Assembly (NCBI GenBank): GCA_018268835.1
Contig: JAFDVU010000010.1
Location: 1 to 64,000, forward strand
Reading direction: 5' to 3'
Origin: Acidobacteriota bacterium
Lineage (GTDB): Bacteria > Acidobacteriota > Terriglobia > Bryobacterales > Bryobacteraceae
DNA: 64,000 bases
This document shows, piece by piece, positions 3,422 through 24,294 of this stretch (position 1 is its first letter; every line of letters starts with the position of its first letter). The position numbers and the translations under genes were made by a program. Below the pieces are notes generated by a model. That model saw nothing but the letters and a program-made list of their open reading frames with translations. It was not told the DNA's origin and searched no databases.

Positions 3422-3449
3422 CCGGGTACCTCAAGTTATCCTAAACCTG

Positions 3450-12551: not shown

Positions 12552-12648
12552 ATGAATCGGCCTTAGCGGGCCGTATCAAACCAGAAACGAGGGATCGCGG
12601 CACTGGTCCTGGTATGTGGGGCTGTCGGAAACTGGGTGGTGCCCCGGT

Positions 12649-12716
12649 CATGCCCTCCAGTCCGCCCCTTGTGCGCACGGGTTCGCGTGACGGACACTGC
12701 GGGTATGACGCCGAAA
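12649..12716. repeat. Right copy of the duplicated intergenic/start region
   Basis: This copy runs straight into the functional URO-D-family gene at 12705. It begins with CATGCCCTCCAG, the complement of an ACT-gene-type start, but no ACT coding frame continues to its left. This suggests a duplicated junction rather than a conserved promoter. Confidence 0.6.
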
Positions 12717-13763
12717 CGGCGGTGGGCCGCGATGTTCCGCGGGGAACCGCTCGACCGCGCGCCCTGCGACTACTGGGGCACCGCGGAGATCACGCGACGC
12801 CTGCTCGCCGAACTCGGGTGCCGGGACGAACGCGCGCTCTGGCAGGCGCTGGGCGTCGATAAGTGCATCTACCTCGCGCCGCGCCATCCGCGAGCGAAGG
12901 AAGATACGTGGCACACGCCGTCGCTGTTCAGCGTATGGGGCGTCGAGACCGCGGAGATTCCGTACCTGGACGGGCAGGGCGTCTACGAAGAGGCGGTGCA
13001 TCCGCCGCTGGCGGACGCTGCCGGCGCGCGCGAGATCGACGCGTATCCGTGGCCGTCGCCGGAGGACTGGGACTACTCGGACTTCCGCGCGCGGTGCCTG
13101 GAGTGGCGCGACCACCCGATCGTCGGCGCGTCCTACGAGCCCTTCTACCTCTACTGCCGGCTGCGCGGCATGGAACGGGCGCTGGAAGACGTGGTCGCCA
13201 ATCAGCCGCTGGTGCATGCGGCGATGGAGCGCATCTACGAGATCCACGCGGGCATCGTGCGGCGCGCGCTGGATGCGGCCGGCGACCTGATCGACTTCGT
13301 CTACGTGGCGGAAGACCTGGGCACGCAGAACTCGCTCCTGATGAGCCCGGCGGCGTTCCGCGCCTGCATCAAGCCGTGGCTGGCGAAGATGATCGCGCTC
13401 GCGCACGAACGCGGCAAACTCGCGTTCCACCACGACGACGGGGCGATCCGCGCGCTCCTGCCCGACCTGATCGGGATCGGGATCGACGTGCTGAATCCGG
13501 TGCAGTGGCGCTGCCGCGGGATGGATCGCGAGCGCCTGGCGGCGGACTTCGGGCGCGACGTGGTGTTCCACGGCGGCGTGGACAATCAGCGGACGCTGCC
13601 GTTCGGCACGCCCCAGGACGTGCGCCGCGAGGTGCGCGAGAACCTCGCCATCTTCCGCCGAGGGCGGGGGTATGTGGTGAGCCCGTGCCACAACCTCCAG
13701 ATCAACACGCCGGCGGCGAACGTAGTGGCGATGTACGAGGCGGTGCGGGAAGGCGGAGCCTGA
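12705..13763 (+). CDS. Uroporphyrinogen decarboxylase (URO-D) family protein, methyltransferase-like branch
   Basis: The 352-residue protein opens with MTPKRRWAAMFRGEPLDRAPCDYWG, a typical 'r.r....~rGe.~DR.P' URO-D family start. It continues with the TIM-barrel strands DFVYVAEDLGTQNSLLMSP, KLAFHHDDGAIRALLPDLIGIGIDVLNPVQ and VVFHGGVDNQRTLPFGTPQDVRREV. These end in the family's SPCHNLQINTPAANVVAMYEAV. Members of this branch are usually corrinoid-linked methyltransferases or of unknown function rather than haem-pathway decarboxylases. The FHHDDG segment matches the 'H.cG' zinc-site region of MtaA-like enzymes, with Asp-Gly in place of Cys-Gly. No corrinoid protein is adjacent. Confidence 0.8.
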   Translation: MTPKRRWAAMFRGEPLDRAPCDYWGTAEITRRLLAELGCRDERALWQALGVDKCIYLAPRHPRAKEDTWHTPSLFSVWGVETAEIPYLDGQGVYEEAVHPPLADAAGAREIDAYPWPSPEDWDYSDFRARCLEWRDHPIVGASYEPFYLYCRLRGMERALEDVVANQPLVHAAMERIYEIHAGIVRRALDAAGDLIDFVYVAEDLGTQNSLLMSPAAFRACIKPWLAKMIALAHERGKLAFHHDDGAIRALLPDLIGIGIDVLNPVQWRCRGMDRERLAADFGRDVVFHGGVDNQRTLPFGTPQDVRREVRENLAIFRRGRGYVVSPCHNLQINTPAANVVAMYEAVREGGA

Positions 13764-13869
13764 CGGTTCCGTCCCACGGTGGACCCGCGGTTGACCCGCT
13801 TGAAGCCAGGCTGAATTCGTGCGACTATAGCGGATCAAAGTATCGGATAAACAGGTCTTTTATTCATAA

Positions 13870-13879
13870 ATTGCGCAAT
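13870..13879. promoter_or_regulatory. 10-bp palindrome upstream of the molybdoenzyme operon
   Basis: ATTGCGCAAT is a perfect palindrome about 37 bp before the start of the Fe-S subunit, in an AT-richer leader of about 80 bp. It is followed by a second TTGCAA half-like sequence. It could be an operator, but I do not recognise the regulator. No FNR-type box is visible. Confidence 0.3.
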
Positions 13880-13915
13880 CTTGCAATCGAGAGCGCGGAG
13901 GCCGGGGATTACGAT

Positions 13916-14464
13916 ATGGCTCAATACGGTTGGTTGTTGGATCCCAAGCGCTGCATTGAATGCCGGGCGTGCGAGACGGCATGCAAGCAGTGGAACAACG
14001 TTGCCACTGGCGTGAACGTCCGCTACCGCCAGGTGAATGTCCGCGAGGCCGGGCAGTATCCGGCGGTCAGCACGACGGCATTGTCGCTGGCCTGCAACCA
14101 CTGCGAGAACGCGTGGTGCGTGAAGGTCTGCACGGTGCATGCGATCACGCGGCGGGCCGACGGCATCGTGCTGATCGACGAGTCGAAGTGCTTCGGCTGC
14201 CGGATGTGCGAGAAATTCTGCCCGTACCAGGTGCCGAAGTTCAACTCGCTTACCAATAAGGTCGAGAAGTGCACCATGTGCGCCGACCGGATCGACCAGA
14301 ACCTGCAGCCGGCGTGCGCCACGGTGTGTCCCACCGGCGCGTTGCAATGGGGCGATTGGAGCCAGTTGCAGACGCAGGGAGCGGGACAGGTGCCGTCCTT
14401 CACCGATCCACAGTACACGAAGCCGCACATCCGTTTCATCACGGACGGATGGAGCGCGCGGTAG
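13916..14464 (+). CDS. Four-cluster [4Fe-4S] electron-transfer subunit of a DMSO-reductase-family enzyme
   Basis: The 182-residue protein contains four cysteine groups typical of DmsB/PsrB/PhsB-type subunits. They are CIECRACETACKQW, CNHCENAWCVKVC, CFGCRMCEKFCPYQVP, and CTMCADRI plus CATVCPTGAL. Each set coordinates part of a chain of four cubane clusters that carries electrons to the molybdenum subunit encoded next. It has no signal peptide, so it would be exported as a hitchhiker with the Tat-tagged catalytic subunit. The ATG at 13916 has a GGAGG-like site about 17 bp upstream, which is far, but homology starts here. The next gene begins 10 bp downstream. Confidence 0.9.
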   Translation: MAQYGWLLDPKRCIECRACETACKQWNNVATGVNVRYRQVNVREAGQYPAVSTTALSLACNHCENAWCVKVCTVHAITRRADGIVLIDESKCFGCRMCEKFCPYQVPKFNSLTNKVEKCTMCADRIDQNLQPACATVCPTGALQWGDWSQLQTQGAGQVPSFTDPQYTKPHIRFITDGWSAR

Positions 14465-14474
14465 GAGCAAAGCC

Positions 14475-16709
14475 ATGAGCATGACACGACGCGATCTCTT
14501 CCATCTGGCGGGTACCGGCGCCGGACTCGCCGCCGGGAAAAAGCTCTTCGGTTTCACGGACTACTTCGCCCCCGCCGCGGCGGCGTCCGGCACGGCGAAC
14601 ACGCTCATCACCGCGTGCGGCATCTGCAGCCCTTCCTGCGGGATACAGGCCACCGTGCAGGACAGCGCGATCCGCTTCCTGCAGGGCCTGCCGGGCGATC
14701 AGTCCGGCCGCGGGAAATTGTGCGGCAAAGGGGCTTCGGGCGCGCAGTTCGCCTACGACCCCGACCGCCTCAAATACCCGATGAAGCGGACCAATCCGCT
14801 GAAGGGACTGGACCTGGATCCGGGCTGGGTGCGGATCTCCTGGCAGGAGGCGCTGGACACCATCGCCGCCAACCTGAAGGGCGCGCTCGACAAGAACGGG
14901 CCGGAGTCGTTGCTGTTTGTCACCGGAGCGGCGCCGGACATCTGGGCGCGCTTCATGAACTCGATCGGAGTGGTGAACCGCATCGATCATCTGGACGAGT
15001 GCTTCCTGAGCGACCGCATCGTCCAGAAGTACACCACCGGCGGCAAGACGTGGTGCAACGATTTCGCCAACTCGAAGTACATCCTGCTGTTCGGGTGGGA
15101 TATCCTGGCCAAGACGAAGTTGACCTATTCGCAGGGCATCGTGGATGCGCGCGACAACGGCGCGAAGATCGTGGTATTCAACCCGCAGTACTCGGCCACC
15201 GCGAAATTCGCCGACGAATGGTATCCCATCAAGCCCGGGTCGGATCTGGCGGTGGCGCTGGCGATGATCAACGTGATCGTCTCGGAGAACCTCTTCAACC
15301 TGGACTTCGTCAACAACTACACGAACTTCACCGATTTCGCGCCGGCGATCCGGGCGCACTTCGCGCAGTACACGCCGGAGTGGGCCGAACAGCAGAGCGA
15401 AGTGCCCGCGGACGCCATCCGCCGCATCGCCCGCGAGTTCTCCTCACGCGGGCCGGGAATCGTTCCTGCGCACAAGAAAACGCTGTGCGCCAACTACCAG
15501 AACGGCACGCAACTGGTGCATGCGATTTCGATCCTGAACATTCTGGCGGGCACGATCGACCGTCCGGGCGGGCGCTATTTCCCGCGCTCCGTGACCATTC
15601 CCGGCGTGGACGCCGTCTATCCGCCGCCGGCTTATCCGCCGAAGACCGGCCGCCGCGTCGACGGGAAGGACAAACTGCCTTTCGTGCTCGAGGACGGCAG
15701 CGGGCTGTTCAGCACGCTTTCCGACGGTATGCTGAAGCAGTATCCCGGCATGATCAAAGCCTGCTTCATCAACGCCTACACGGCGCTCGGCTTCCCCAGG
15801 CCGGCGCGAGTGTTCGACGCGCTCTCCACGGTGCCGTTTGTGGCGGTGATGGACACGCTGCCCACCGACACCGTCTCCTACGCCGACATCGTGCTGCCGT
15901 CGGCCACGTACCTGGAGTCGAACGACCTGGTGACCAGGGATTACAAGGCCCTGTTCCCGCAGGTGGTGGTGCGCCAGGCGCTGATTCCGCCGATGTTCGA
16001 GACCAAATCGATCGGCTACGTCGCTCTGGAGTTGGGCAAACGGCTGGCCCCCGGCTATTTTAAGGACGCCAACGGCGACTACATCAACCTGAATACGCTG
16101 CTGGACGAGAAAACCAAACGGGCGGGCCTCGGCAATACGTTCGACGAGTTCCGGCAGAAGGGCATCTACTCCAAGGACCAGACCTTCGTTCCGCGCACCA
16201 CCTTCTCCGTGCCGGGAACGACCAAGTGCCAGATCTACGTTCCGCAGTTCACCAAGGGCGCCGAGCCGTTGCCCTCGTGGCGTCCCAAACGCGACCTGCC
16301 AAGCGTGGACTACCCCTACTATTACCTGACCTTCATCCCGGCCGTCCACCGGCGCAACAGCACGGAGAACAACCCCTTCCTGCACGAGATCTTTCCCACC
16401 AACGCGGCCATGCTGAACACCGCGCTGGCGGCCAAACTCAAGGTGAAGGAGGGGCAGTCGGTCCGCATCACATCGCGCGCCGGATCGATCGTGCTGCCGG
16501 CGCATCTCACGGAGACCCTGCGCCCCGACGCGGTCATGGTGGCCCACGGCTTCGGGCACCGTTCCAAAATGCTCTCGCTGGCCGGCGGACAGGGCGCCCG
16601 CGACGGCGACATCATTCCGGACCAGAGCGCGGACGACATGGTGCAGGCTCTGAACTACGGCGGCGCCGCGTGCATCATGGACGCGGTGGTGCAGATCGAG
16701 GCCCTATGA
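14475..16709 (+). CDS. Tat-exported molybdopterin oxidoreductase catalytic subunit (Psr/Phs/Arr-like)
   Basis: The 744-residue protein begins MSMTRRDLFHLAGTGAGLAAG, a twin-arginine signal. A [4Fe-4S] site CGICSPSCGIQ with its fourth cysteine in GKLCGKG follows. The DMSO-reductase fold includes WVRISWQEALDTIA, KYILLFGWDILAKTK, and a C-terminal MGD-binding domain (LVKEGQSVRITSRAGSI-type, then VMVAHGFGHRSKML). Cys176 in HLDECFLSD sits where polysulfide/thiosulfate and arsenate reductases place the Mo-ligating cysteine, so that branch is favoured. The natural substrate (polysulfide, thiosulfate, arsenate, tetrathionate or other) cannot be assigned. It forms an operon with the Fe-S subunit and, through an ATGA overlap, with the TorD chaperone. 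No NrfD/PsrC membrane anchor is encoded nearby, which is unusual. Confidence 0.85.
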   Translation: MSMTRRDLFHLAGTGAGLAAGKKLFGFTDYFAPAAAASGTANTLITACGICSPSCGIQATVQDSAIRFLQGLPGDQSGRGKLCGKGASGAQFAYDPDRLKYPMKRTNPLKGLDLDPGWVRISWQEALDTIAANLKGALDKNGPESLLFVTGAAPDIWARFMNSIGVVNRIDHLDECFLSDRIVQKYTTGGKTWCNDFANSKYILLFGWDILAKTKLTYSQGIVDARDNGAKIVVFNPQYSATAKFADEWYPIKPGSDLAVALAMINVIVSENLFNLDFVNNYTNFTDFAPAIRAHFAQYTPEWAEQQSEVPADAIRRIAREFSSRGPGIVPAHKKTLCANYQNGTQLVHAISILNILAGTIDRPGGRYFPRSVTIPGVDAVYPPPAYPPKTGRRVDGKDKLPFVLEDGSGLFSTLSDGMLKQYPGMIKACFINAYTALGFPRPARVFDALSTVPFVAVMDTLPTDTVSYADIVLPSATYLESNDLVTRDYKALFPQVVVRQALIPPMFETKSIGYVALELGKRLAPGYFKDANGDYINLNTLLDEKTKRAGLGNTFDEFRQKGIYSKDQTFVPRTTFSVPGTTKCQIYVPQFTKGAEPLPSWRPKRDLPSVDYPYYYLTFIPAVHRRNSTENNPFLHEIFPTNAAMLNTALAAKLKVKEGQSVRITSRAGSIVLPAHLTETLRPDAVMVAHGFGHRSKMLSLAGGQGARDGDIIPDQSADDMVQALNYGGAACIMDAVVQIEAL

Positions 16710-17251
16710 GCGGCGAGGCCGCGACGTTCTCGTTCCTCGGCAATGCATTCCTGTCTCCGGACGCGGTAAGGCTCGCGGACCCGCTGTGCGAATCGGGCGA
16801 GAGCGAGTTCGTCGCGGCAATCACGGCGGCTCCGCTCGAGCCCGAGTTCTACCGGCTGTTTCTGAACCCGGCGGGTACGCCCTGCCCGCCGTGGCAGTCG
16901 GCCCACGGTCCGGAGCGGCACCTGATGGGCGAGCCGCATCTGGGCGCGCTGGCGTGGTACCGGCGCTTCGGCGTCGAGCCGGTGACCCGGAACGATCCGG
17001 CCGATCACATCGGGCTGCTGCTGATGTTCTACGCGCGCCTGCTCGAGGTGGACGCGGCCGAAGAGGTGCGGTCAAGATTCGCCGCCGAACACCTGGCCTG
17101 GATCCCGGCCTTCTGCGACGCCATCGAGAAGGAAACCCGCCACCCCTTCTACCGCCTGCTGGCGGCGAGGACCCGGCAACTGGCAACCGGCATCCTGGAA
17201 CATTCGCCCGGCCCGGGCGGAATCACACAAGAGCAACCTGCTCTTCGGTAG
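16706..17251 (+). CDS. TorD/DmsD-family molybdoenzyme chaperone
   Basis: The 181-residue helical protein carries the family's signature region EHLAWIPAFCDAIEKETRHPFYRLLAARTRQL near the C terminus. Upstream is the acidic/aromatic segment HIGLLLMFYARLLEVDAAEE. TorD-type chaperones bind the Tat signal of a specific molybdoenzyme and hold it until cofactor insertion. Its ATG overlaps the stop of the catalytic subunit gene (ATGA), so the partner is almost certainly that subunit. Its last 29 bp overlap, on the opposite strand, the read-through extension and SECIS-like hairpin of the radical SAM selenoprotein gene. Confidence 0.85.
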   Translation: MSGEAATFSFLGNAFLSPDAVRLADPLCESGESEFVAAITAAPLEPEFYRLFLNPAGTPCPPWQSAHGPERHLMGEPHLGALAWYRRFGVEPVTRNDPADHIGLLLMFYARLLEVDAAEEVRSRFAAEHLAWIPAFCDAIEKETRHPFYRLLAARTRQLATGILEHSPGPGGITQEQPALR

Positions 17252-18614
17252 GCTCCGCTCAACAGTACCAGGGCTCGGTGAGATACGGGATCGTCGCGCG
17301 GGATTCCAGGGGCAGGTCCGGTAACTCGCCCGCGCCGGCCAGGTCGTAAATCGCGCGGAAGATCTCCGTCCGCGGCGTCCGGCGTTTCTCCTCGCGCTTG
17401 ATCAGTTCCTGGATATCGAGGCAGAGGCGGTCGATCTCCGGGTCGGGATTCTTCCACGGGTAGCACAGCGAGCGCGGGTCGAACAGACCGATGTGCGCGC
17501 GAGTTTCGGGCAGGTCGAGCAGCAGCGAGCCCTCGGGGATCAGCAGCCGGATCGCCAGTTGAATCGGCGCGACCTGCGCCGCCAGGCCGAGCGCCGCGAT
17601 CTCGCGCAGGAAGGCGCGGTAGCTCTCGCGCGTGGTCCACGGGGTGAACGGGAGGAAGGTCGGACACAACGGCAGTCCCGCCGCGCGCATCGCCGCGAGC
17701 GCTTCCAGGAAGTCCGCGCGCGTGTGGCCCTTGGCCAGGCGCGTCAGCATCGCGTCCTCGAAGGATTCCACCGCGCTGGTGACGAACGCGCAGTTGGTCC
17801 GCCGCAGCACGCCGGCCAGGTCGCGATGCTTCAGCAGGTGCTCCACCTTGATGGTGACGTCGTAGGTCAGCCACGGCCACTCGCGATGCAGCGCCTCCAC
17901 GATCGCGGCGGCGTGTCCGGGTCCGTTGAGAAAATCCGGATCGCCGAACGTGATGTGCTGCGCGCCGGCGGCCACCTGGCGCCGTACGTCCTCCAGCACC
18001 ACGTCCTGCTGCACCACGCGAAACGCGCCGCGATATACGGGGACGATCGGGCAGTGGCGGCACAGGTGCTTGCACCCGCGCGACGCCTCCGTGTAGCCGA
18101 CGCGCCGCGTTCCGTCCGGCACCACGAGCTGCGCGTACGCGCCCAGCGGCGGCAGACCCTTGCGGTCCGGCACGAGGAAGGTCTGGCGCGCGATTCCGTC
18201 CGTCGCGGGTTGCGGAGACGGCGGCGGAGTCGACTGTCCCGCGTCGAGACGGCGCGCCAGTTCGGCCAGCGCGGCTTCGAATTCGCCGCCGAGGATGCTG
18301 CCCACGCCCGCGCCGCGCAGCAGGCGCGCATTCAGCGGCGCGTAGAGTCCGTAAGCGCACAGATGCGCCCGCGGATTCACGTGGCGCACGCGCTCCATCA
18401 GGCGCAGCGCCAGGCGGGTGGCCGTGTGCATCGGCAGGTAGAACGCGATCAGGTCGGCCGCTTCGGTGGCGGCGCGCGGCATGGGCGAGCAGGAGACGTC
18501 GGCCATCGTCACCTCGTGCCCGTCCGCCCGCAGCCACGCCGCCGGCGATGCCAGGCCGAACGGCTGCCGCCCGAGTTCGTAAGTGGAGACCAGCAGGACC
18601 TTCACTCGAACCAT
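17223..18614 (-). CDS. B12-binding radical SAM selenoprotein with CUAEP tail
   Basis: The N-terminal about 150 residues form a cobalamin-binding-like domain (VKVLLVSTYELGRQPFGLASPAAWLRADGHEVTMADV). A radical SAM domain with CKHLCRHC (CxxxCxxC) follows. The open frame appears to end with ...TEPWYC at a UGA (complement of 17259-17261). Reading that UGA as selenocysteine gives C-U-A-E-P-T-E-E-Q-V-A-L-V and a real UGA stop at 17223-17225. The CUAEP tail is the hallmark of a known family of radical SAM proteins that occur as selenoproteins or as CCAEP cysteine forms. A perfect hairpin follows the internal UGA. The full product is then 463 residues including Sec. Start MVRVKV at 18614 is preferred over upstream codons because the domain begins there. 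Reaction unknown. Conventional annotation would stop 12 codons short. Confidence 0.85.
17229..17245 (-). promoter_or_regulatory. SECIS-like hairpin after the in-frame UGA
   Basis: Read on the minus strand, a perfect 7-bp stem AAGAGCA / TGCTCTT closes a GGT loop. It starts 13 nt after the UGA codon, so the apical loop lies about 20 nt downstream. Bacterial SECIS elements recognised by SelB have a stem-loop at about this distance with G residues at the start of the apical loop, which this matches. It overlaps the 3' end of the torD-like gene on the other strand. Confidence 0.8.
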
Positions 18615-18723
18615 TATCGCGCGCCGTTCGTCGAGGCCCCCGGAGCCGGGTGGCGAAGTGACGGAAGTCACAATTGCGGGTCCGCTTTTCCTGTCAAACT
18701 AGATCTTCAGGAGGGCTTCGGCT

Positions 18724-20964
18724 GTGACTGTGGACAAGGCTGCTGCGAACCGGAATCTGACTCTGGGAACGATCTCTTTCGCCCTCTGCTTCGCCATCTG
18801 GGGATTGATCAGCGCCTTCGCCCCGGCGTTTCGCGCGGAACTCCACCTCACCGCGCGCAGTACCGGATTCCTGGTGGCGGTGCCGGTGCTGCTCGGCGCG
18901 CTCGCCCGCATCCCGATGGGCATGCTGACGGATCGCTACGGCGCGCGCACGGTCTTCACAGCGCTGATCGTTTTCTCCGCCGCTGCCGCTGCGATCGTTC
19001 CGCTGGCCGCCGGATTCAACGAACTGGTGGTTTTCGCGTTCCTGCTGGGCATGGCGGGTTCGTCGTTCGCCATCGGCGTGGGCTACGTGTCGCGCTGGTT
19101 CCCGCCGGAGCGGCAGGGCACGGCGCTGGGAATTTATGGCATCGGCAACATCGGGCAGTCGGCGGCAGTGTTCCTGGGACCGGTGATCGCCGCGATGATC
19201 GGCCGCCCCGCCGTGTACTTCGGAATCGCCGGGCTCTCGCTGGTGTGGGCGCTGGTGTTCGTGCTGCTGGCGCGCGATGCGCCGCGCACGCGGCCGCCCG
19301 CGGGACTGGGCCCGATGATCCACGTGCTCACCACGGAACGGCTGTCCTGGGCGCTGAGCGCGTTCTACTTCCTCACCTTCGGCGGATTTGTCGCGTTCTC
19401 GATCTACCTGCCTTCGCTGTTGAAGGACCAGTTCCGCCTCGCGGCGGCCGACGCCGGACTGCGCACAGCGGGCTTCGTCGTGCTGGCCACGTTGATGCGT
19501 CCGGTGGGCGGCATCCTGGCCGACCGCATCGGCGGCGCGCGCGTGTTGAGCGGCGTCTTCCTCGGGATCATCCCGTTCGCCATGCTGCTGGCGTGGCTCT
19601 CCATGGTGCCGTTCACGGTGGGCGCGCTGGGATGCGCGGCGCTGCTCGGGCTCGGCAACGGCGCGGTCTTCAAACTGGTGCCGCAATTCTTCCCGGGCAA
19701 CACCGCGACCGTCACCGGGCTGGTGGGCGCGATGGGCGGGCTGGGCGGATTCTTCCCGCCGCTGCTGCTGGGGACGTTCCGCGACGCCACCGGCAGCGTC
19801 GCGCCCGGCTTCTTTCTGCTGGCGGCGACCAGCGCGATCATGTGGGGCCTGAACCAGCGCATCTTCGTGCCGCGCCAGCGCGCGCTCGAAGCCGCGGGGC
19901 CGTCCGTGACCGGAGGATTCGCGGCGGACCGCATTCGCGCCGGAGCCATCGCCACCATGGCCACGGCGCTGTTGATCGCCGCCATCGTGGTGGGCTCGCG
20001 GAACCTGGAGAACTTCGATGCCGCGCTGGTGATCTACACCTTCGCCGTGATCTTCGCCACGTGGGGCATCGTGTACCACTACTCGGTGTGGCTCAACAAG
20101 CCGCCCACCCGGCGATTCTTCGAGCGCACCTTCGACCTCATCCGGCGTCACGGCATCGCGACCTCGATCGCGGTGGTGGCGCGCGCCGGCGCGACTCACA
20201 TCGTGGCGCAGAACTTCATCCGGCGCCGTTCGCGGCTGCGCTGGTGGATGCACCAGTGCCTCTTCTGGGGATGCCTGCTGGCGGTGGCGATCACGTTCCC
20301 GCTGGTCTTCGGCTGGATCTACTTCCGCAGCGCGCCGGGCGACCAGATGACTTACGTCACTTACCTGTTCGGCTTCCCGGTGGGCGCGTTTCCGCTGGGC
20401 GGCGTGCAGGCGTGGCTGCTGTTCCACGGACTCGATATCGCGGCGATCCTGGTGCTGGCCGGAATCTCTCTCGCGCTGTGGCGGCGCATGCGCGACGAGG
20501 GCGCGCTCACGCTGCAGGATTTCAGCATGGACTTCCTGCCGCTGATCCTGCTGTTCGCGATCTCGATCAGCGGTCTCGCGCTCACCGCCTCCACGCTCTG
20601 GCTGCGCGGGGCGTTCTACGGCTTCCTCGCCATCCTGCACGCGATCACGGTGGTGGGCGCGCTGCTCTTCCTGCCCTTCGGAAAATTCTTCCACATCTTC
20701 CAGCGGCCCGCACAACTCGGGGTCAAGCTCTACCAGTATTCCGGCGAGCAGGGGGAAGGCGCCTGCTGCGCCCGCTGCGGGCAGCGTTACGCCTCGCAAA
20801 TGCAGATCGAGGACCTGCAGCGCGTGCTGCCCGAACTCGGCTTCGATTACCGCGTCCCCGGACCGGCGGGGCACTGGACCGCGCTGTGTCCCGCGTGCAA
20901 GCGCGCCACTTACGCCGTAGCTCAACTGCGCACCAAGGAGGAATACCATGGCCAAAAGGCCTGA
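18724..20964 (+). CDS. NarK-type nitrate/nitrite transporter fused to a NarI/HdrE-like membrane cytochrome b domain
   Basis: The 746-residue protein joins three parts. Residues about 10-390 are an MFS nitrate/nitrite porter (GMLTDRYGARTVFTALIVF; LGMAGSSFAIGVGYVSRWFPPERQGTALGIYG-type nitrate signature; a second LGNGAVFKLVPQFFPG copy). Residues about 400-670 are an integral membrane domain with histidines in WWMHQCLFWG, LLFHGLDI, FLAILHAITVV and GKFFHIFQRP, spaced like the haem b ligands of NarI/HdrE-type subunits. Residues about 680-740 are a zinc-ribbon-like tail (CCARCGQRY...CPACKRATY). This would couple nitrate uptake to quinol oxidation in one polypeptide. The start is GTG with an AGGAGG site 9 bp upstream. 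It overlaps the next gene by 17 bp. Confidence 0.8.
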   Translation: MTVDKAAANRNLTLGTISFALCFAIWGLISAFAPAFRAELHLTARSTGFLVAVPVLLGALARIPMGMLTDRYGARTVFTALIVFSAAAAAIVPLAAGFNELVVFAFLLGMAGSSFAIGVGYVSRWFPPERQGTALGIYGIGNIGQSAAVFLGPVIAAMIGRPAVYFGIAGLSLVWALVFVLLARDAPRTRPPAGLGPMIHVLTTERLSWALSAFYFLTFGGFVAFSIYLPSLLKDQFRLAAADAGLRTAGFVVLATLMRPVGGILADRIGGARVLSGVFLGIIPFAMLLAWLSMVPFTVGALGCAALLGLGNGAVFKLVPQFFPGNTATVTGLVGAMGGLGGFFPPLLLGTFRDATGSVAPGFFLLAATSAIMWGLNQRIFVPRQRALEAAGPSVTGGFAADRIRAGAIATMATALLIAAIVVGSRNLENFDAALVIYTFAVIFATWGIVYHYSVWLNKPPTRRFFERTFDLIRRHGIATSIAVVARAGATHIVAQNFIRRRSRLRWWMHQCLFWGCLLAVAITFPLVFGWIYFRSAPGDQMTYVTYLFGFPVGAFPLGGVQAWLLFHGLDIAAILVLAGISLALWRRMRDEGALTLQDFSMDFLPLILLFAISISGLALTASTLWLRGAFYGFLAILHAITVVGALLFLPFGKFFHIFQRPAQLGVKLYQYSGEQGEGACCARCGQRYASQMQIEDLQRVLPELGFDYRVPGPAGHWTALCPACKRATYAVAQLRTKEEYHGQKA

Positions 20965-23197
20965 CGCCGCCGCACCCATCCTGGAGCGCTACGGACCGCA
21001 CGGCAACTACGTTCCGCCGGGAGGGTGGGACCGCGCCGCCCGCGGCGATTACCGGCTCGTGAAGACGCACTGCTGCTTCTGCGGGCAGCAATGCGGCATC
21101 CAGCTCAAGGTGCAGGAGAACCAGGTGGTCGGCTTCGAGCCGTGGGAGGACTTTCCGTACAACCGCGGGATGCTCTGCCCCAAGGGCGTGAAGCGCTACC
21201 TGCAAGGCCCGCATCCGGACCGCCTGCTGCGATCGCTGGAGCGCACGCCCGAGGGCTTCCAGGAGATCTCCTATGAAGAGGCGCTGCGCATCGCGACGGA
21301 GAAACTCACGGCGATCCGCGAGAAGTACGGCCCGGACGCGATCGCGATCTACGGCGGCGCGTCCATGGTGACGGAGAAGGCGTACCTGCTGGGCAAGTTC
21401 GCGCGCGTGGCCGTGGGCACCCGCAACATCGATTACAACGGCCGCCTCTGCATGGTGTCGGCGGGCACCGCGTACAAGCTCGCGCTCGGCGTGGACCGCG
21501 CGCCCAACCCGATGTCCGACGTTCCGGAGACCGAGGTGTTGCTCGTCCTCGGCGCCAACGTGGCGGAGTGCGCGCCCATCGCCACCAGCTACATCTGGCG
21601 CATGCGCGACAACGGCGGACGCCTGATCGTGGTCGATCCGCGGATGACTCCGATCTCGCGCAACGCCGATCTCTATCTGCCGGTGCGGCCGGGCACGGAC
21701 CTGGCGCTGCTGCTCGGCATGCTGCACGTGATCGTGCGCGAAGGCCTGGTGGATACCGAATACCTGAAGAGCCACACCACGGGATGGGAGGCGGTGCGCG
21801 AATCCGCCGCGAAGTGGGACCCGGAGACCGCCGCCCGTGTCTGCGGCGTGCCGCCGGACAACATCGTCAAGGCCGCGCTCATGTTCGGACGCGCGAAGAA
21901 GGCGATGGCGATTCACGCGCGCGGCATCGAGCATCACTCCAAGGGCGTCGAGAATTGTCTCGCGGTGATCAATCTCTGCCTCGCCACCGGCAACATGGGG
22001 GCGCCGGGACGCGGCTGCTTCATGATCACCGGGCAGGGAAACGGGCAGGGCGGGCGCGAGCACGGGCAGAAGTGCGATCAGCTTCCCGGCGCGCGATCCA
22101 TCACCGACCCTGAAGCGCGCCGCCACATCGCCGGCGTGTGGGGCATCCCGGAAGAATCGTTGCCCGGTCCGGGGCTGACCGCGCAGGAGATCATGAACGC
22201 GATCCACGCGGGCGAGATCAAGGCGCTGTTCTCGATGTGCTTCAACCCGCTGGTCTCACTGCCGGATGCGCGGCACACGCGCGAGGCGCTGGAGAAGCTG
22301 GAGTTCTTCGGGGTGATCGATTTCTTCCTCTCCGAGACGGCGCAGCACGCCGATCTCGTCTTCGCCGGCAGCACGCAGGAAGAGGACGAGGGCGTCATCG
22401 CCAGCTCCGAAGGCCGCGTGCAGAAGATCAACAAAGCGGTGGATCCGCCCGGCGAAGCCAGGTCGGATGCGAAGATCGTGACCGATCTCGCGCACCGGCT
22501 CGGCAAGGGACAGCATTTCCCATACACCTCCACGCGCGAGATCTTCGAGGAGTTGCGCGTGGCTTCGCGCGGCGGCATCGCCGACTACTACGGCATCACC
22601 TGGGAGCGCGTCGAAAAGGAGTACGGCGTGTTCTGGCCCTGTCCCAGCCTGGATCATCCCGGGACGCTGCGCCTGTTCGAAGACGGCCGCTTCTATCACG
22701 GCGACGGCAAGGCGCACATGCAGGTCACCGAGTATCGCCAGAGCGGAGACCCGCCATCCAGCGACTTCCCCATCTACCTCACCACCGGACGCGTGGTCAG
22801 CCAGTTCCTTTCCGGCACGCAGACGCGCCGCATCGGGCCGCTGGTGGATCTGTATCCCGAACCGCGCTGCGAAATTCATCCGCGGCTGGCCGGGCAGTTG
22901 GGCATCGCTGATGGCGATTGGGTGAAGGTCACCACGCGGCGCAACTCGGTTACGGTGCAGGCGCAGGTGGTCCGCACCATCCGCCCGGACACGGTGTTCA
23001 TTCCGTATCACTGGCCCGGTCCGCGCAGCGCGAATAACCTGACGCACCGCACGCTGGATCCGCGGAGCAAGATCCCGGAGTTCAAGGTGTCCGCCTGCCG
23101 CGTGGAGAAGACGCAGCCGCCGGCCGATCTGTCAGGCATCCGCAAGGCAGAGACCGGGATCGCGGGCGCCGTGCCGGCGGTGGAAGGGAGGCTGTAG
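20948..23197 (+). CDS. Cytoplasmic nitrate-reductase-like molybdopterin oxidoreductase (NarB/NasC type)
   Basis: The 749-residue protein has the [4Fe-4S] motif [13 protein letters not shown] with the fourth cysteine in [11 protein letters not shown]. The molybdenum ligand region is [14 protein letters not shown] with Cys168 in the NapA/NarB position. The stretch [22 protein letters not shown] is typical of assimilatory-type nitrate reductases. The C-terminal MGD-binding domain includes [21 protein letters not shown] and [23 protein letters not shown]. No Tat signal is present, so it should work in the cytoplasm. Its AAGGAGG ribosome site lies inside the upstream NarK fusion gene, which shows translational coupling. 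With NarK-NarI upstream and Fe-S and Rieske proteins downstream, a quinol-fed nitrate reductase is the best reading. Nitrate as substrate is inferred. Confidence 0.85.
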
Positions 23198-23201
23198 CGA
23201 G

Positions 23202-23816
23202 ATGTTCGGAAGCGAGTTCTTCGTCGACCCCTCGCGCTGCATCGGCTGCCGCTCCTGCATGACCGCCTGCGCCGAGTGCGACAGCCACCGCGGCGTCAGC
23301 ATGATCCACGTCGATTACCTGGACCGGCCGGACATGATCGCGACCGTCCCCATGGTTTGCATGCACTGCGAGGAGCCCACCTGCGCCATGGTGTGTCCCG
23401 CGGACGCCATCAAGCGCGGCGAGGACGGCGTGGTGCGCAGCGCGCTCAAGCCGCGCTGCATCGCCTGCTCCAACTGCGTGCTGGCGTGCCCGTTCGGCGT
23501 CCCCAAGGTGCACGTGGATCTGGAACTCATGATGAAGTGCGACATGTGCTACGACCGCACCAGCGTGGGACTGCGGCCCATGTGCGCGACCGTCTGTCCC
23601 AGCCAGGCGCTGACCTTCGTGCCGCCCGAACAGGTGGCGCGCGAGCGGCGCGAGCAGCCGGTGAACGTGTTCCAGTTCGGCAACCAGACCGTTCGAACCA
23701 AGGTGAGTATCATGCTGCCGCCCGGAGCGCCCGCGCTTTCGGTGGATGCGGCGGACTACATGTGGGAGGAGGAGCATGCCCGAGGAGACCAATCTCAAGA
23801 AGCATTTGTGGACTGA
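23202..23816 (+). CDS. Four-cluster [4Fe-4S] ferredoxin subunit of the nitrate-reductase-like complex
   Basis: The 204-residue protein carries cysteine groups [44 protein letters not shown], and CDMCYDRT plus [10 protein letters not shown], the NarH/DmsB-like arrangement for four clusters. It begins five bases after the catalytic gene ends and overlaps the Rieske gene by 41 bp, so it is firmly part of the operon. A C-terminal extension ([20 protein letters not shown]...YMWEEE) is unlike DmsB and may dock to the Rieske protein or membrane subunit; that is inference. No export signal is visible, consistent with a cytoplasmic complex. Confidence 0.9.
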
Positions 23817-24294
23817 GGAATTCAGCGTTCAGGCGTCCGAGGACAAATACGTCCTGCGCCGCCAGTTTTCGAAGTTCCTCGTGCTGACCAGCTTCGGCAT
23901 GCTGGCCGGCAACGTCTGGATCTGGGCGAAGTCGCTGATGGGCCGCGCCCGCCCGAAATATCCCGCGATGCCGGTCGCCGCCGAGGAGGAGATTTCAGTG
24001 GGCGGCGTGAAGCTCTTCCAGTATCCCGGGCCCAACGATAACTGCATTCTGGTGCGGCCGTCCGACGACCGCTACGTGGCCTACAGCCAGAAGTGCACGC
24101 ACCTTTCCTGCGCGGTCTATTACTCGCGCGAGCACAACCGCCTGGAGTGCCCCTGCCACCAGGGCTTCTTCGGCGTGGAGGACGGCCGCGTGCTGCAAGG
24201 GCCGCCGCCGCGTCCGCTGGCGCGCGTCGTGCTGGAGCGGCAGGGCGGGCAACTGATCGCCACCGGAATGCTGACCGGCGGGGAGGAGTCATGA
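23776..24294 (+). CDS. Membrane-anchored Rieske [2Fe-2S] protein
   Basis: The 172-residue protein has the Rieske cluster motifs CTHLSC and CPCHQGFF at residues about 105-130. The single N-terminal hydrophobic segment ([22 protein letters not shown]) is preceded by a twin-arginine-like RRQFSKF. That combination is how bc1-type Rieske proteins are exported, placing the cluster outside the cytoplasmic membrane. The other soluble subunits of this operon lack export signals, so the topology is puzzling. The start at 23776 lies within the ferredoxin gene, preceded by a GGAGGAGG run. It ends in an ATGA overlap with the next small gene. It probably relays electrons between quinol and the reductase. 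Confidence 0.85.

Follow-up and report, generated by a model that had tools for sequence, protein, structure and literature searches.

A CUAEP-tail radical SAM selenoprotein gene in an acidobacterium and its co-occurring ATP-grasp ligase

A window of 64,000 nucleotides, the whole stretch of DNA analysed here, carries on its minus strand (17226..18614) a radical SAM gene that is almost certainly, as judged from sequence comparison, a member of the NCBIfam family NF040546, 'CUAEP/CCAEP-tail radical SAM (seleno)protein', with an in-frame UGA decoded as selenocysteine (Sec). The original prediction had read this UGA as a Sec codon, and it is now supported by the family score, the sel genes of the genome, the exchange of Sec and Cys among relatives and the covariation of a hairpin behind the codon. 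The prediction had, however, over-rated the novelty of the finding. NCBIfam already catalogues this family together with its Sec, and the Sec assignment is ordinary for this named family. What seems not to have been described before, so far as we could establish, is the partnership of the enzyme with an ATP-grasp ligase, and their co-occurrence is the new result here.

Reading frame, selenocysteine machinery and hairpin

We examined the reading frame around the UGA (17259..17261, minus strand). The minus-strand codons CTC ACC GAG CCC TGG TAC TGT are followed by TGA (17261-17259), by GCG GAG CCT ACC GAA GAG CAG GTT GCT CTT GTG and by a further TGA (17225-17223). Translation of the frame through 17261-17259 gives TEPWYC-U-AEPTEEQVALV-stop, and the CUAEP tail predicted behind ...TEPWYC, together with its UGA stop, was confirmed base by base. 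This second UGA (17223..17225, minus strand) is the true stop of the gene, and the scan of TGA triplets in the window found no hairpin of the SECIS kind at SECIS distance behind it. Counted from the ATG at 18614, which is likely the start in preference to the upstream GTG at 18671, the predicted protein has 463 residues including Sec, which is residue 452. Without readthrough of the UGA, the product would miss both Sec and the tail.

The read-through protein scored 628.7 bits with the NF040546 model (cut-off 500) and covered positions 1-467 of the 468 of the profile; the family named in the original prediction was the correct one. Pfam recognises a Radical_SAM domain (49.9 bits) and, slightly above the cut-off, a B12-binding domain (32.3 bits). 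The N-terminal domain is a B12-binding-like Rossmann domain which, combined with the radical SAM core, makes the enzyme class-B-like. Across 44 aligned members, the cysteines of the radical SAM CxxxCxxC motif (C181, C185 and C188, within SRGCKHLCRHC) are invariant, and the C-(U/C)-A-E-P tail motif, here WYC-UGA-AEP, is invariant or nearly so. The AlphaFold2 model computed from 44 relatives has a mean pLDDT of 92.6 and a pTM of 0.92, with lower pLDDT values of 69-79 for the tail residues 451-463.

Judged by the radical SAM protein, the genome is nearest to Bryobacterales/Solibacter MAGs (Acidobacteriota). The host genome (7.46 Mb, 367 contigs, 99.99% complete) was searched for selA, selB, selC and selD, a check suggested with the original prediction, and all four genes are present. 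The tRNA-Sec, with anticodon UCA, scored 71.5 bits (gathering threshold 47), selA 492.6 bits, selB 355.5 bits and selD 355 bits. The selD gene (L018:1501-2424) has its own in-frame UGA, in AAG-U-ASKLSP, and is a second selenoprotein gene of this genome. SelB and tRNA-Sec almost certainly decode the UGA at 17261-17259 as Sec at the hairpin at 17245-17229, which places a vicinal Cys-Sec pair (C451-U452) near the C-terminus, ahead of AEP and a short tail.

This bacterial SECIS hairpin (17229..17245, minus strand) is recognised by its fold, its covariation and the G of its loop. The hairpin, AAGAGCA-GGU-UGCUCUU, starts 13 nt 3' of the UGA, and its stem (AAGAGCA/UGCUCUU) consists of 7 perfect Watson-Crick pairs around a GGU loop, in the geometry that had been predicted. 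The fold of 50 nt reached −19.2 kcal/mol, compared with −11.6 ± 2.6 kcal/mol in shuffles (z = −2.9), and 1 of 200 shuffles equalled it. Both strands of the window, with 1632 TGA triplets in all, were scanned for a stem of at least 7 Watson-Crick pairs with a 3-nt loop beginning with G at SECIS distance behind a TGA; two triplets have such a hairpin, the selenoprotein UGA and a TGA at 3448 on the plus strand. The 7-bp hairpin of the latter, also with a G-starting 3-nt loop, overlaps a P-loop kinase-like ORF at its start. This TGA ends no gene in frame, was rejected as a second Sec codon and is taken as chance.

In 44 distinct Sec forms, paired cells of the hairpin amounted to 80.5%, compared with 66.2% in shuffled and at most 59.4% in slid controls, and two-sided changes numbered 55 where shuffles gave 21.7; in 500 shuffles neither value was reached, and related rows may inflate these figures, although the slid controls are without the signal. 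All 83 distinct Sec forms begin the loop with G, as do 7 of 15 Cys forms. In the Cys forms the hairpin decays to a mean of 3.47 pairs of 7, compared with 5.66 in the Sec forms. Shuffling of synonymous codons gave a modest signal (mean z = −1.1 for the Sec forms and −0.1 for the Cys forms); the cause is that the hairpin places limits on the peptide too, and covariation is the better test.

The whole hairpin lies inside the ORF of a TorD/DmsD-like chaperone gene (16706..17251, plus strand; Pfam Nitrate_red_del 65.6 bits; 62.7 bits with the DmsD model, whose cut-off is 162). The 3' end of this ORF overlaps the extended selenoprotein gene in antisense by 29 bp, in agreement with the overlap first noticed in the sequence.

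The family and its exchange of selenocysteine and cysteine

The gene is a Sec-form member of NF040546 from an acidobacterium, and nothing essential differs from the family: the whole length, the tail and the Sec position are shared, while the family model does not mention a ligase partner. A 2026 review of prokaryotic selenoproteins (PMC13188914) includes other radical SAM selenoproteins, rSAM_SeCys (TIGR04167) and TrsS (NF045646), but not the CUAEP family. Those two are likewise radical SAM proteins with Sec, but form separate families with other Sec contexts, and neither model is among the NCBIfam matches of this protein. A literature search, whose coverage was without the new-selenoprotein papers of Haft and colleagues, found no paper on the CUAEP/CCAEP motif or on NF040546.

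The tail could be read in 104 relatives; 88 of them have TGA at the Sec position and 16 have TGC or TGT, always within C-x-A/S-E-P. Alignment of homologues, another check proposed at the outset, found the C-U/C-AEP tail conserved in all 104, none of which ends at WYC. On a tree of 106 rows the Sec/Cys label needs 8 changes, of which at least 7 are forced by well-supported branches, and Sec and Cys have therefore been exchanged repeatedly. In the 61 genomes with an assignable tail, selB was found above the cut-off in 49 of 51 Sec-form genomes compared with 5 of 10 Cys-form genomes (Fisher p = 8e-4). The five Cys-form genomes without selB spell CCAEP with TGC, and in two of them the remaining tail is shortened to MEQF or MEIV. 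In the Sec-form genomes G110 and G287 no selB was detected; both are MAGs in many pieces (about 260 and 300 contigs), and G287 is 75% complete.

A short tail was observed at locus L159 (genome G327), in which the UGA is followed by SEPL and TAG; any SECIS hairpin would therefore sit outside the translated part. This genome does contain selB. The same stop pattern, one TGA and one TAG, was seen in G263 and G295 in the family search.

The expectation that standard gene callers truncate such genes ahead of Sec is borne out by the homologue of Thermomicrobium roseum DSM 5159, WP_012643191.1, located on the megaplasmid NC_011961.1 (L137 5935-7371). Its annotated end is ...RLTESWFC, while the DNA runs on as UGA-AEPLEDPSGPVASQ... 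(U-AEP), with a SECIS-like hairpin of 6 bp and a GUC loop at the same distance from the UGA. As this annotation stops ahead of Sec, public gene calls do truncate such genes.

A probable ATP-grasp ligase partner

Within 6-kb flanks, 45 of 80 named loci contain one further protein cluster near the CUAEP gene, that of an ATP-grasp protein of about 420 aa with the L-amino-acid ligase C-terminal domain LAL_C2. The homologue tested matched no NCBIfam model over its cut-off. Across 396 Acidobacteriota genomes, the enzyme is present in 65 (61 over the cut-off and 4 fragments), the ligase in 68 and both in 63 (Fisher p = 1.7e-64, a value too small owing to shared descent, with genomes that span many families). 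Of these 63 enzyme and ligase pairs, 42 lie within about 1 kb of each other, with a median gap of 72 bp and 32 on one strand; the non-adjacent pairs comprise 20 on different contigs and one far apart. The linkage is observed in Sec and Cys forms alike, and also in Latescibacterota, Methylomirabilota and Gemmatimonadota MAGs.

The host genome has its own LAL_C2 ATP-grasp L-amino-acid ligase (L133:1492-2715, equal to G000:C210:50422-51618, plus strand), 63% identical to the ligase of locus L067 and unlinked to the CUAEP gene. From their co-occurrence, the CUAEP enzyme and the ligase very likely work in one pathway, which may lead to a modified peptide.

Possible chemistry and alternative readings

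The nearest solved folds to the model are AprD4, TsrM, MgmA and OxsB. The radical SAM 1,2-diol dehydratase AprD4 (PDB 6fd2), the B12-binding radical SAM protein TsrM and OxsB present the same overall fold (TM 0.65-0.69) but differ in being 14-19% identical, in having no Cys-Sec tail and in acting on other substrates. A sequence search of the PDB gave remote relatives only (9ccb and 6fd2).

The second-best NCBIfam match of the protein is ArsL (NF040542), which belongs to arsinothricin biosynthesis, with 264.7 bits compared with a cut-off of 450. The two are about 30% identical along 85% of the length and share the domain order and a Cys-rich extreme C-terminus. The ArsL tail, however, is RCCLKC (its relatives end in KRCCLKC) and its genes are located inside ars operons, whereas the CUAEP tail is C(U/C)AEP and its genes lie outside them. 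Identity as ArsL was rejected, given the score below cut-off, the C-U-AEP tail instead of RCCLKC and the absence of an ars operon context. Around 79 CUAEP loci we found zero ArsR, ArsM, ArsN1, ArsB and ArsQ genes and one ArsC gene; with ars genes virtually absent, a role of arsenic itself is not supported. Some ArsL clusters also hold an ATP-grasp gene, as CUAEP loci do, and distant ATP-grasp genes were present in three clusters with an RCCLKC tail. Since these are 25-28% identical to the CUAEP-partner ligase and their superfamily is common (731 plasmid records), they provide a weak analogy at most.

ArsL is a radical SAM enzyme needed for hydroxyarsinothricin, and transfer of an ACP group is predicted for it (PMC8552651). 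By analogy, the Cys-Sec pair of the CUAEP enzyme may keep a thiophilic substrate or intermediate in place at the radical site for the attachment of a SAM-derived group (perhaps 3-amino-3-carboxypropyl); the ligase would then couple the amino acid so made to a second one. We regard such an ArsL-like group transfer as a tentative reading. A broader conjecture, which we put forward with considerable reserve, is that the CUAEP enzyme and the LAL_C2 ligase form an undescribed two-enzyme biosynthesis, found in many acidobacterial families and other phyla, in which the Cys-Sec pair would serve a radical transfer from SAM making an unusual amino acid, perhaps with a metalloid or a chalcogen, that the ligase would build into a small peptide.

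The main rival concerns the role of the tail. The C-terminal Gly-Cys-Sec-Gly of mammalian thioredoxin reductase forms a selenenylsulfide, and the Cys-Sec pair could, instead of binding a substrate, be a redox arm whose selenenylsulfide passes electrons to the iron-sulphur site or to the substrate. The vicinal position of Cys and Sec near the C-terminus, on the lower-confidence tail of the model, is consistent with such an arm, and redox selenoproteins typically show repeated exchange of Sec and Cys. However, in the closest named relative, ArsL, the C-terminal Cys triad belongs to an enzyme that handles a metalloid, and CUAEP loci have no conserved oxidoreductase partner nearby. We consider the redox arm doubtful, though it deserves weight.

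The surroundings of the gene in the window raise the question of whether the radical SAM enzyme is a functional part of a molybdoenzyme locus, for example as a maturase. It is flanked by two molybdopterin oxidoreductase modules on the plus strand, one (12636-17251) with a URO-D-like protein, a 4Fe-4S subunit, a PhsA-like catalytic subunit and the TorD-like chaperone, and the other (20948-24294) with a NasC/FdhA-like catalytic subunit, a 4Fe-4S protein and a Rieske protein; a NarK-like transporter is a further neighbour. The catalytic subunits of both modules score under the curated NCBIfam cut-offs. This neighbourhood is not conserved, however: the close relatives at L053-L055 have moaA and/or nadA beside the gene and elsewhere it is the ligase, and in the window the radical SAM gene is on the opposite strand. 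A tie to the flanking molybdenum oxidoreductases was rejected, as the linkage is not conserved in relatives, and a role in the locus is very improbable.

The NarK-like MFS transporter makes up the first about 345 residues of a 746-aa fusion protein (18724-20964, plus strand). The remaining about 350 residues have no Pfam match; they resemble membrane segments, with a CxxC...CxxC zinc-ribbon-like end.

The weakest alternative, that translation really ends at the UGA and that the 11 codons behind it are an untranslated relic or chance extension, has in its favour the standard bacterial code, in which UGA means stop, and the radical SAM core, which the protein would keep, but its probability is close to nil given the tail conserved in 104 relatives with UGA or a Cys codon at the same position, the covarying hairpin, the complete set of sel genes and the Cys of the genomes without selB (with the two Sec-form exceptions).

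Decoding of the UGA as Sec is retained, and the T. roseum example indicates that public annotation still cuts CUAEP-tail genes at this codon. The repeated exchanges of Sec and Cys offer naturally occurring variants with which the contribution of Sec to a radical SAM enzyme can be studied. The near-perfect co-occurrence with the ligase places a former orphan selenoenzyme in a two-gene pathway that can be tested, and gives a new clue to its product.
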